Source: Scenedesmus sp. ARA3 (taxonomy: Eukaryota > Chlorophyta > Chlorophyceae > Sphaeropleales > Scenedesmaceae). From it: a stretch of 64,000 nt of DNA. Positions 28,301 through 52,300 of this stretch are shown here, piece by piece; the stretch's first letter is position 1, and the number at the start of each line of letters is the position of its first letter. The stretch is taken from the NCBI GenBank assembly GCA_004335835.1, contig RWJK01001912.1, forward strand, positions 62,001 through 126,000, given 5' to 3'. A program made the position numbers and the translations under genes. Under the pieces are notes generated by a model. It did not search any database. It was not told where the DNA came from and saw nothing but the letters and a program-made list of their open reading frames with translations.

Positions 28301-31300
28301 CATCACCTGGCATGCCAGTCTGGCTGCACAGTTCCATCGCAGAAAACAGCCAGCAGCAGACTTCAAACTTCTTTCTGCAGTGTATGCAATGCCGCCGCTG
28401 CAAGCAGGCAGCTGTCATACAATGCCGCACTCACGTCTGATCTTTGTGCACAGGTTGCCGGCCCTCTTGCCGGTGTTGCCATTGACGCTGCTCTGGATGG
28501 CGTTGCCGGCAAAGGTGCACTCTGCCAGGCTCCTGCCAAGCTTCTGGCAGTGGCCCATCCATGCAGCAGATATGGCTGCTGGGTCGCTGATGTTGAGCTG
28601 CGTCTTGGCCCATGCCATGGTGGACTTGACGCAGTTGTTGCAGGCTGCAGCAACAAAACCAATATGCAAACAGCAGTGCCAGTATTGGTAGCGTAAACGC
28701 AGGCGAGGCTTCCGCACACATTGGCCTCAAAGCACACATCAAGCAAGATGTACATTCATTGCCCACCAAGGTGATACTGCATGCAAGCATTGCACCATAA
28801 TATCTTGTGCAGTCCCTCACCTGAGCAGGACTCCTCCACGCACTGCCCAAGAGGCACACATGTGTCAGCCCCTGTAGCATCATCGCACTTGCACTGAACC
28901 TCCGGAGTGAGGTAGCTGCAGCCAAACACACCAGCGGCCGGGCTGCATGGTGCTGCCTCTGTGCACTTGTCAGCAGGCACGCTTGCATTGCTTGCAGACA
29001 CACCAGGCACCAGCGCGGAAGCATTCACACCATTGCTGCTGCACAGCCTGAGGTCTGCTGCAGTGATGGCGCTTGCATTTGTAGCGTTGTTGGCGGCGAT
29101 GAGCGTGCAGTTTGCAGCCGATAGGGCTGCTGCGCAGTCACCCATCTTGCGGCAAATCAGCGCTGGACGCTTGCCAAGGTTGCCCTGGTAGCTAGCTTCA
29201 ATCTCCACTGCAAAGGAATTGCAGGCCTCTGGGGTTTGGCCCTGGCCAACACAGAATGTTGTGAAAGCCGCAGCGACAGCAGCTGAACTGGTCTGCGCCT
29301 GCTGCGCAGCAGCAAACGTGCGCGCTGCAACAAAGCAGTTGCGGCACTTGGAGCATGGAGTGAGCTCGCACGCGCCCAGCAACTCGCACTGATCAACACC
29401 TGTGGTGCTGTTGCAGACGCAGCGCTCAGTTGTTGGTGCGGCGCCGCACTGCAGCTCCGCACTCTTGCAATCGGCTGTTACTCTGCAAGTACCAGCAGTC
29501 AGGTTTGCATTGGCCGACACTACCAAGCCGCCAGGTACGATAGCGCCCGTGTTGACGCCCTGTGTAGTGCAAAGGCTGAAGTTTCCAGCTGGAACCAGGG
29601 TGTTGCCAATGCTGCTGAGGCTGCAGGTGGGCTCGAAGTTTGCAGCGCCAGTGCATTCGCCGAGCAGCTGGCAGATGAGGCCGCCACGCTTGCCAGCGTT
29701 GCCTGCCTTGCTGGTTTTGATAGCGGCTGCTGCGCTGGCGCATGCTGTTGCGCTCTTGTTCCAGCCGTTCTTGCACTGGTTCTCAAACAGTCCAGCAAGT
29801 GTGGCAGCGTCCTGCTGTGCCATGTATGCTGTGTTGTTGAGTAGTTGCTGCACCTGTGACAGGCACATCTGGCAGGTCTTGCAGGGAGTGAACCTGCAAT
29901 TGCCGAGTGTGACGCATTCGGTGACACCACCCCAGCAAGTGCACCACTGCTGGTCAGGGAAGGATGTTTTGTCGCAGAGGAAGTCAACCTGGTTGCTGCA
30001 GTGCGTGGTGTTGAGGCAGTTGCCCTTGGGGATAGCTGCAGGTTGAGAATGCATGGCAGCAAGGCAGCAGTACTGTGTTATTTTCCGAGTGTGATCAGCA
30101 GGAGCACAGAAACAAGGGTTCAAACTTCAAGTGTGAAGCTGACGCTGGTGCTTTGATGCTGGGCATGCATTGAAAAGAGAAAAACAGAGCAGCAACAAGG
30201 TTTGCAGAAAGCTGCACGTGCCATTGAGTGGGAAAAAACAGTCAAGGACACACTTACGTGTGGTGGTGTTCTCGCAGAATGGCATGGTCACGTGCTGCAA
30301 CGGAGCCGCAACCACTGCTGGGAGGTTGTTGGCTCTCGCATCAACACGCAGCGTTGCATTGCCGGCGCGGATCAGCGGGGTGGTGTAGTAAATGTTGCGG
30401 GTGCAGGTCAACATTGCGTTGACCAGAATATCGGTTGGTAGCGGGATGCCGCAGTCAACGCCACCTGGCACGCTGGAGGTCAAAGTAACATTTTTCAAAT
30501 GCACGTTGCCCGTGTTGATCAGCTTTGCCTCATACAAGACGATGTCGTTTGGCCAGGTGACGAAGCTGGCGCTTGTGCTGCTGTTGATCTGCAGCTGCGG
30601 CCGCTGCAGCAGCGGCACAGTGTGTGTCGTGGGCGAGGGCAGGTCTGTGGTGTTCTTGGTTCCCCTTGGGGTTGCAGCCGCTGGCAGTGACATTGTGACG
30701 GCTGCGGCCTCAAAATGGTCCTGGGTGACTGCCTTCGAGATGATACAGCGCAGCTCCTCATTGGGTGCCAGCAGCGCAATGCTGCAGCTGACAGCATCGC
30801 CAGTTACGGCGATGTTGTCCAGGCGCACGTTGCCGGTGTTGCGTGCTGTGATGTTGCAGCGGGTTGTGCCAGCTGCAGAGAGGCCAGGGGAAGCGTGAAA
30901 AGGTAGCAAAGCAGCATTAGCAATTTAAGGCGCAGCTCAGCTTGCCAGTCCAGCTGCTGCATTCATGCTGAATTAGAAGAAGGTTGCTCTTGAGCAATAT
31001 CCAAACAAAGCTACTACACAGCTGTGCTGGCAAAGTTGGAAGCAGCATCACACAACTACAAAGTTGTGAAGGGACAGCAGTCATGATGTAGCTTTGAACA
31101 CCACTTACGTGCAGCGGAAGGTGCCTCGCAAGAAGCATTGTTGACCGTCACAGTCAGGTGCGGGTTGTTTGGGACAGTCACAATGAGCTCCTGCACAGTA
31201 GTGGTTGCTGTCAGCGCACTTGCACTCACAACAGCTGTCAGTGCCTTATCTCCGGCTTCAATGTCAGCTTGGGACCACACGTAGGAGCCAGTGCACACCA

Positions 31301-49300: not shown

Positions 49301-52300
49301 CAGTGTAATGAGGTTGGTGCTGCCATTGCAGGAGAAGCCGGTCCACTCAGTGGATGAGAGTGAGGTATTGCGCAGCCTGGTGTTGCCCATGTTGGTGACT
49401 GTGATGGTGGCAGTGACAACAGCGTCTGCAGCGCGCAAAACAAACAGTTGCACAAGTCAGCAATGGCAGCGTGTCGCACGCAGATCCAGTGCACATGTTA
49501 CCTGCTGACTACTAGTGGTAGTACCACCACAGGCGGACTGTGGCGTCATCCGATCAAGGCAGCACAGCACAGAGAACCCATATCAGCCCTGAACAACAGC
49601 GTGCCATGCGCAGTCACCTCAAAATCAGCACATAAGGCAGCAGCAGCAGCAGCAGCAGCAGTGTGACAACCTCAAGCATGCCTCCGACCGGGCTAACTTA
49701 CCGCCCGCTGTGGCTGGCACGGCATCCAGAGACACCTGCAGGTCCACTGCCGGCATCTGTGCCAGTGGCACAGCGACGCTGCTGGCTGAGGGCGACACAA
49801 CATCCTTGTATACAGGATTGCTGGGGGTGGAGCGCATTGCCTCAATCACATTTGCTTCAAGCAACAGGTAGGCAGCCTCAAAGTCGTCTTGGCTTGCATT
49901 CCTTGACATTGTGCAACTGATTGAATTACCAGCAGCGACTGCTGTGAGGCTACTGTTGCATGTCAGGCTGTTGCCAGCAGTTGCTGCTGCAGTGGCCAGG
50001 TTGAAAGTGAGGCCTGTGTTGCCGCTGTCGAGCACTGTCAAGTCGCAGGACACCTTGGGGTCGGCGGCTGCACATGGGGAAGCAGGAAGTAACAGCATAG
50101 TACAATGAGGCGCAGCATCGTGACATGCAGCACCTGGGAAGTAGAAAATTGGGCATGAATGCGTGTGTTTATGCACGCTGTGGTGGTTTCAAAGCACACA
50201 CAATTGTACATCTTCAATACAATCAATCAGCACACAAGTTCAGCAGCACTCACCAGAGGCGTTGGCTGGAGCTGAGCAGGATGTGGCATCAAACGTCACT
50301 TGCATGGATGCATCAGCGTCAGCTGCCACGCTCGTAGTTAGGCTCTTGCCGTCTGCTGCTGTGACAGCCCAAGCGCCTGCACCAGTAACTGATGCTGTGA
50401 ACGTTTTTGAGTTGGTTGTTAGCTGCTCAAAGGCTGCCTGGGTGAAAGTGAAGCTGCCAGTGCACACAACAGAGTGGTCAACAGGCAACACCGCTGTGCC
50501 TGCAGTGTTGGTATACGACGTTGTTGCACTTGCAAGCAGGCCTGACGTGAGCCCTTCATTGCAGGTAAGCGTCACACCATTGTCCACCACAACGATTGCA
50601 TTGCTGAGCGCAATGCTGCCAGTGTTTTCCAGCGTTGCCTCGAAATCAACAACAACACCTGTAGCAATGTAGAAGAGAAGAAGAATAAGATGAAGCAGAA
50701 CAGCTAGCTTCATTTGCAGATCATGCCACCATGCATTGTTCTGATGGCACTGCCAGCACACCATACTAGCGCTCAATGCTGCTGCTGCTGCTCCTGCTGC
50801 TGCACAGCACAGTGAAAGCAACATTCGGAGTGAACACGTTGCACCCGGCGGCTTCACTCTCAACCCTGCATGCCGCAACTCACCAACACTGGTGACAGTA
50901 GCCCCAGGATATGTGTGCTCCAGGCTCAGGCGTGCTGTGCGTGTCTGCGACGTGCTGGCTGTATCTGTCACAGCATTGATTGTGGCAGTAGAGGTGACGT
51001 CTGGCGCTGCTGTTGCATCGACAGTAACAGACAAACTGCCCGCCGTGACTTCGCCTGCTGTCAGTTGCCGAGTGAAGGTGCAAGTGGTGCTGACTGCACC
51101 TGCCAGTGTCGTGGCAGCGCATGTTGGGGTAGTGCCGCTGCTGGTGACTGCCAGATCCTTTAGTGGCACAGGGCCGGCGGTGACGGCTACAGTGCACGCT
51201 GATTCATAGGTCACACCATCTGCATAGACATTTAACCCAGACATTTGAGCATCGTCAGTGCTACATCACACATGATGCTGCAGCTGGGATGCCTGTGTTC
51301 ATGGCACTGCTGTGACAACATACATCAGCCGGTGCAACTAGTTTTGCATCAATGACAGCGCACAAGTCCTGCTACAGCATAAGACACAGCGGCTACATCG
51401 AAGCTTGGCACCACTTGGGTGAACCTAGCTGCTGCAGCAGCAGCACTCACCTGCAGCCAGCACAGGTGCCGCGCAGCTAACACTGCCTGCCTGCACACTT
51501 GGCGCAAACTCGTTGATGTCGGCGTTGGTGAGGGTATCACTGGCCACCGATGAGCCACCCACGAGAGCCGTCACAGTGACGGCTGCCACTGGATCTGCAA
51601 TCTGGCCCGTGCCAGCCACCTGCTCGCTGAAAAGGCACTTCAGGAAGCCGCCGCTGGCTGGTGCAAGCATACCACTTGCATCTGCCACGGAGGTCCCAGT
51701 AGTGTCGCCAGCGCCAGTGTGTGTCGTGCAGGTCATGGTTGGAGGCGATGCCAGTGTTGTCTCCAGAACGATGGGCCCCAGAACAGCATTGGTGTCTGTG
51801 TTTGTCACTGTTGCTGTGTACTGGATGGTTGCTCCTGGCAGCAGGTACACTGTGCTGCTGCCACCGTTTTCTGCAGCCAACGCATAATGCAGCTCTGGTA
51901 AGACATATAGTTCCATGCCATATCTCAATGACAAGATGATTCTGGCGTGCGCTAGTCAGCTGGAGCAGGCGTTGTTTAGCAACATCCATGCAGGAACAGC
52001 AATTGTGTTGGACAGGCAATGAAATGATCTCAGGCGCTGCTGATGCTGACGCTGTACATGCTGAGCCTTGATCACCTGTAGCCTGCAGTGCAGGATTGGA
52101 ATTCGTTGATGCTGATCCTCCATCGCTTACAAGAGTCAACGTGGTGGTGCTCTGTGCAGCAGCGCCACAGCAGAACACTGCACCTGCACAGTTTGCACAA
52201 GGTGCAGCAGACGCCCATTGCTCAAACGATGGCTCCATGAAACATATCACGGAGATAAAGCAGGATTGACATCAACTGGTGTGTGTTGCTCATCTCCTTA

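Follow-up and report, generated by a model that had tools for sequence, protein, structure and literature searches.

A minus-strand array of Ig-like units and the exons beyond it

We analysed a 64-kb window of the Scenedesmus sp. ARA3 genome (G000:C1490:62001-126000; the genome comprises 87.3 Mb in 1567 contigs), in which a predicted gene encodes a very long array of Ig-like units. Minus-strand frames contained many pieces of about 110-130 residues sharing the core N-T-G-N. Profiles for two unit types, A and B, were built from four seeds of each and rebuilt from 18 A and 14 B pieces; the seeds were picked by hand, so the A/B typing was not blind. Both profiles were used in a splice-aware Viterbi model, with splice weights set by hand and A-A, A-B, B-A and B-B steps at equal cost. 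We found that the best path holds 39 Ig-like units in strict ABAB...A order, running from 51835 to 30223 on the minus strand and encoding 4,693 residues with linkers. A first-pass annotation of the window had proposed exactly this number and an alternation without exception. Leave-one-out typing was right for 39 of 39 units, with the narrowest margin for unit 1. The units are arranged as follows:

50888..51835, minus strand: units 1-2 (A, B), a leading pair in the phase of A3-B3, weakly similar to the rest
47553..50884, minus strand: block I, units 3-8 (A1 B1 A2 B2 A3 B3)
43965..47525, minus strand: block II, units 9-14
39964..43964, minus strand: block III, units 15-20
36933..39960, minus strand: block IV, units 21-26
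33503..36929, minus strand: block V, units 27-32
30544..33502, minus strand: block VI, units 33-38, of which a single exon holds units 33-35
30223..30540, minus strand: unit 39 (A), trailing, its final residues uncertain through probable intron read-through

The cysteine pattern splits A from B almost perfectly. A C-x-x-P lies close to the unit end in 19 of 20 A units and 0 of 19 B units. An early Cys falls within the first four residues of all 19 B units and at residues 2-4 in 0 of 20 A units; residue 1 of the A units was excluded because unit 7 has a split-codon Cys there. These two markers had been noted before, together with a QxDFEA motif in B that did not hold up, since the exact motif occurs in only 3/19 B units. 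A looser form, Q-x-[DE]-[FY]-[DE], is present in 12/19 B and 0/20 A units. The model predicts 32 introns in the array (GT/GC-AG; mean 235 bases, range 151-356), 29 of them in phase 1. They lie at 16/19 B-A junctions, at 12/19 A-B junctions and, in four cases, within units.

Beyond the array, the same strand carries a set of Cys-rich repeats, a REJ domain and a C-terminal exon:

24740..30024, minus strand: Cys-rich repeats, weakly saposin-like
29500-30024, minus strand: repeat R1
28981-29493, minus strand: repeat R2
between R2 and R4, minus strand: repeat R3, intron-broken and read by eye
27596-28093, minus strand: repeat R4
27179-27586, minus strand: repeat R5
26266-26790, minus strand: repeat R6
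25467-26066, minus strand: repeat R7
24740-25285, minus strand: repeat R8
21813..22790, minus strand: REJ domain exon (PF02010, E 2.9e-17, 62.9 bits against a cut-off of 25)
19698..21023, minus strand: C-terminal exon with a juxtamembrane region, one hydrophobic (transmembrane) helix and the tail MKRR
19698-19700, minus strand: stop codon TGA, ending the C-terminal exon

To place these parts we compared them with related algae, represented by 19 proteins judged algal from their pattern; the named algal homologue, P0009, is annotated in Scenedesmus sp. NREL 46B-D3 (Chlorophyceae, Sphaeropleales, Scenedesmaceae). Cys-rich repeats cut from single exons measure 136-200 residues, and an alignment of eight sequences (seven repeats and P0009) has 16 invariant columns, 13 of which are Cys. 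The repeats matched ARMET_N at E 0.0012, below its own cut-off, and Foldseek gave Na-SLP-1 as the top PDB match (E 0.31, probability 0.75) and none at E 0.001 or better. Neither a GPS nor a channel was matched in the exons tested, and the last exon stops after one helix and MKRR. A sequence search of solved structures with the array, Cys-rich, REJ and C-terminal parts returned nothing under E 0.2.

We found that P0009 spans units 34-36 and fragments of units 37-39 and then continues into Cys-rich repeats; its junction, APTKALTANGN, matches our predicted VPTKAL/TASGN. In the relatives, array proteins and last-exon proteins share contigs (sizes 69341, 49265 and 22464), which suggests one locus; here and below, a shared contig was deduced from identical sizes (69341, 49265, 37125 and 22464). 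A single predicted gene that reaches well beyond the array is supported by these comparisons.

The six-unit super-repeat

The first-pass annotation had also claimed that the units form six blocks in which same-numbered units are more alike than neighbours. Each of the six block starts it gave coincides with the first base of an exon, directly behind an acceptor in the Viterbi model. The mean Smith-Waterman score between units peaked at lags 6 (142.5) and 12 (125.0); it was 79-87 for lags 2, 4, 8 and 10 and 49-54 for odd lags as far as 29. This signal declines with distance, to 95 at lags 18 and 24 and to 77 at lag 30, where it no longer exceeds its neighbours. None of 10,000 within-type shuffles matched the lag contrast (z 8.6). 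The best match of 34 of the 39 units lies in the same six-unit phase, the misses being units 27, 30, 33, 36 and 39; within the six full blocks the count is 32/36, with all four misses in blocks V and VI. The claim of greater likeness between same-numbered units is thus confirmed. Mean identities are nearly equal (32.9% for the same phase, 29.6% for the same type in another phase, 27.5% for A against B), so the six-unit order is seen less in raw identity than in the scores and ranks.

We also built maximum-likelihood trees of the units. Position labels need 5 changes on the A tree and 4 on the B tree, against shuffled means of 9.9 and 9.3, and 0 of 200 label shuffles for either type were as low as observed. 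The labels are therefore clustered, as had been expected, but none of the six position groups forms one clade, and only 2/17 and 3/16 inner branches in the two trees are well supported. A two-residue insertion after the first Cys is an independent marker that agrees with the six-unit order. It is found in units 8, 14, 20, 26 and 32, all of them B3, and in 0 of 12 B1 and B2 units; the B3 unit 38 is without it, and in unit 2 it was not measurable. Intron sites were considered as a further phase marker and rejected, as the numbers are too few (the A1-B1 junction is intron-less in 4/6 blocks, the other A-B junctions in 1/6 and 2/6).

The blocks are not equally alike. Blocks II-IV are tight (181-191), block I scores 108-136 against them, and blocks V and VI pair at 147. 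The proposed division into families I-IV and V-VI therefore stands for the V-VI pair and not for block I, which is looser than the tight family II-IV. The flanking units, two leading and one trailing, are as many as had been counted, but unit 39 is closest to the A3 units and unit 1 is only weakly placed. When the central copies were cut in the register B3-A1-B1-A2-B2-A3 (units 8-13, 14-19 and 20-25), they scored 185-206 with the smallest spread; cuts beginning at A1 gave 181-191 and cuts beginning at A3 gave 177-206. The B3-first register thus fits slightly better than the A1-first one, and A3-first is nearly as good. These scores suggest that the last duplications may have spanned B3 to A3.

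At the DNA level the expected parallel diagonals of about 3.4 kb were missing: self-BLASTN of the array returned 7 weak matches only. The six-unit periodicity consequently rests on protein comparison. A recent segmental duplication of a DNA cassette of about 3.4 kb, introns included, would explain both the periodicity and the similar block lengths, but it is very improbable in the face of the missing diagonals, of an identity that reaches only 46% between the most similar same-phase units, and of the far closer likeness of same-position units in related algae, described below.

Age, relatives and paralogues

We compared 44 algal units, each covering more than 75 profile positions at more than 25 bits, with the units of the window. 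Of these, 43 shared 57-100% identity with a single window unit and no more than 50% with the next two best-scoring ones, where the next best was taken among the three best window units printed for each relative unit. The exception is a unit from P0008, 45% identical to unit 33. P0001, at 96-100%, represents a near-identical strain. Since the units of relatives match their own counterparts, the duplications predate the more distant of the sampled species. The cassette duplication, supported at protein level by the scores, ranks and trees above, is old and precedes the split of the sampled related algae. Repeated duplication of a 3.4-kb cassette in one gene, as first suggested, thus survives as a six-unit protein cassette within one gene but without a DNA-level trace.

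Copy number may have shifted since then. In two relatives, P0013 with P0016 (69341-base contig) and P0017 with P0022 (37125-base contig) each seem to give two pairs most like units 7-8, and one of the pairs has a tail resembling that of window unit 2. This could reflect a gain specific to the lineage, or a hybrid unit near the array's N-terminus.

Paralogues elsewhere in the genome show other arrangements of the same elements. On contig C1009, seven alternating units are clear and an eighth is modelled in part (the decoding adds a spurious ninth); Cys-rich repeats, a REJ domain and a C-terminal region follow, the last of these having a hydrophobic run and a tail that is longer. A second paralogue (G000:C22:2609-7544, plus strand) has divergent Ig-like units of one type, with the core N-G in place of N-T-G-N, and the same three parts follow them (Cys-rich, REJ and C-terminal). 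These two therefore repeat the downstream plan of the window gene. On C38 the contig edge falls inside an alternating array in which B-A-B is clear. On C93 and C1228 most units are plain, with a single B-like unit on the former and three on the latter, and neither Cys-rich nor REJ parts were among the matches listed for them. The simplest series would lead from plain units to A-B pairs and on to the three-pair cassette. The A-B pair would have arisen first and three pairs would then have become the cassette, which unequal recombination between similar phase-1 exons could have multiplied before the sampled algae separated. An additional REJ match lies at G000:C1039:36936-37193 (plus strand), with no array, Cys-rich or C-terminal part among the matches listed.

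Domain family, probable architecture and known counterparts

The array units belong by profile to DUF7507 (PF24346, CLIPPER_2). Four of five array exons scanned exceeded the curated 27-bit cut-off and the fifth reached 20.5; across the whole genome at least 36 of the 40 DUF7507 matches listed exceed it. At E up to 0.1, the Pfam scan of these five exons otherwise gave only sub-threshold CARDB, DUF11 and FbpC_C_terminal matches, and no I-set Ig or FnIII domain. Among seven exons searched against NCBIfam, one matched TIGR01451, a DUF11-type repeat, at 24.7 against a cut-off of 24, and another matched it below cut-off.

Passages of a survey describe DUF7507 from bacteria and archaea, in tandem arrays of surface proteins that often alternate with DUF11, and give a Lys-Asp-Asn isopeptide triad for a family member, with the Lys near the domain start; in the related DUF11 the isopeptide residues are not universal (PMC12617251). 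We aligned the 39 units with 255 comparison domains, which come from 66 of the 67 proteins taken as bacterial. In the comparison set we found Lys in 175, Asp/Glu in 232 and Asn in 220 domains, in an order and rough spacing that fit the triad; the Lys column stands at the row end, so the counted Lys belongs to the following domain. The full triad is present in 158/255 comparison domains versus 0/39 algal units. The acid or the Asn occurs in 0/20 A units, one of the two in 3/19 B units, and the triad Lys in 2/20 A and 1/19 B rows.

The cysteines follow a different pattern. Both central cysteines are present in 39/39 units and in 206 and 196 of the 255 comparison domains, while the A-end Cys is found in 0/255 and the B-start Cys in 1/255. 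An inter-domain bridge between these last two was dropped given the published Lys position and the placement of the Pfam match, which puts the unit start at model position 18-19 or so. Because the family Lys lies near the domain start and our units begin at that model position, we infer that both cysteines fall within one structural domain, whose first strand would be the tail of the preceding unit. In our reading, B-type structural domains would carry a second, predicted disulfide near the bacterial isopeptide site. Bracing by disulfide in place of isopeptide would suit folding in the secretory pathway.

The family's described range, and the survey's view that eukaryotic isopeptide matches are likely false positives, possibly from contamination (PMC12617251, in part), would fit a bacterial contaminant or the recent transfer of a surface gene from bacteria. 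We consider this scarcely credible for a locus with 32 predicted GT/GC-AG introns, a REJ domain and transmembrane exon downstream, paralogues on further contigs of this genome and an annotated Scenedesmus relative (P0009). An old transfer from bacteria may remain compatible with the data.

The gene probably encodes one giant type I membrane protein, in which 39 DUF7507/CLIPPER_2-like Ig-fold domains are followed by Cys-rich repeats, the REJ domain, a single transmembrane helix and a tail of very few residues; the array would be a surface stalk. This long, disulfide-braced stalk would carry a distal binding end or span the wall, and the REJ part could relay force or binding towards the membrane. 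The putative role of the protein is best read as that of a giant receptor or tether at the cell surface; architecture and history are well supported, and function is not.

Two other roles were weighed. REJ proteins are tied to sperm-egg recognition, and passages on an Ectocarpus REJ protein discuss it as a male reproductive candidate (PMC4700764), in line with a gamete-recognition receptor in which REJ is functional and the stalk a spacer. We regard this as unlikely, as the conservation of same-position units (57-100% in 43/44) poorly fits a freely evolving spacer. Alternatively, the product could be a structural protein of the cell wall or sheath, with a super-repeat left behind as a by-product of unequal crossing-over and no periodic partner. 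Block I, blocks V-VI and the array ends are degraded, and copy number seems variable, with two unit-7-8-like pairs apparently on one contig of a relative. This idea is possible though doubtful, since each compared unit keeps its identity between species, suggesting separate constraint on each position.

The nearest known layout is that of titin, whose A-band super-repeats (seven domains in the D-zone, 11 in the C-zone) are likewise Ig-type repeats of repeats; as described in part of PMC10665226, same-position domains resemble each other best, an effect that is clearest in the central copies. The same layout is found here, in that same-position domains are more alike than neighbours. However, the algal protein is predicted to be extracellular, DUF7507 replaces Ig/FnIII, and the array has A-B alternation, a distinct cysteine pattern and a six-domain cassette. 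Bacterial and archaeal DUF7507 stalks share the family by profile and the tandem surface arrays (PMC12617251, in part). Unlike them, the algal units are without the isopeptide triad and have an extra Cys pair in alternate domains, and the gene has predicted introns at most junctions and a fused REJ domain and transmembrane helix. In polycystin-1, PKDREJ and sea urchin REJ, the REJ domain also lies toward the membrane end of a giant ectodomain; the distal part here is instead the DUF7507 array. Polycystin-1 and PKDREJ are multi-pass proteins with a GPS, in contrast to the single predicted helix of the algal protein. The Chlamydomonas mastigoneme protein MST1 is a green-algal surface protein with tandem Ig-like domains and then a Cys-rich region, but it has nine Ig-like domains and a poly-proline end, and the available part of its text (PMC11015965) does not use the term REJ. 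The array and Cys-rich parts matched no PDB sequence at E up to 1, the MST1 sequence itself lying outside that comparison.

That no description of this layout exists is partly borne out. Broader literature searches did not return this gene among the matches listed, yet Ig-type repeats of repeats are described for titin in the part of PMC10665226 cited above; what is new is the algal DUF7507 version. Full-text literature on DUF7507 gave nothing beyond the survey, most subscription papers lying outside the search. The papers on REJ domains and Chlamydomonas, judged by titles, abstracts and, for PMC4700764, passages, do not concern such an array, and the locus tag of P0009 has no literature mention that we found. 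A cell-wall proteomics paper has no COO60DRAFT in its available main text (PMC11839794; supplements outside the search), which says little as it uses other accessions.

It is quite possible, and we tentatively propose, that an algal lineage adopted a bacterial stalk domain, dropped its isopeptide, gave every other domain a new disulfide brace and expanded it through two nested rounds, first the A-B pair and then the three-pair cassette, into the stalk of a giant REJ receptor. This would make it an independent counterpart of titin super-repeats outside animals, with positions distinct since before the sampled algae split. The array itself provides another instance, besides that in animal muscle, of Ig-fold domains forming repeats of repeats at fixed addresses, so titin-derived rules on what a super-repeat measures or binds can be compared with an unrelated protein. 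It also represents an intron-bearing eukaryotic DUF7507 branch that is without the isopeptide residues and has gained a predicted disulfide pattern, a natural experiment of one fold with two bracing modes in two cell types.

ARAGORN found zero tRNA within the 64-kb window, and in eight frames scanned around the gene, including 10434-10952, no Pfam match exceeded its curated cut-off. Long reading frames with CAG/GCA-type repeat tracts lie on both flanks (53218-63346, minus strand; 3275-8759, plus strand). Downstream of the stop codon of the gene, at 18887-18931, AACAT is repeated in nine perfect copies.

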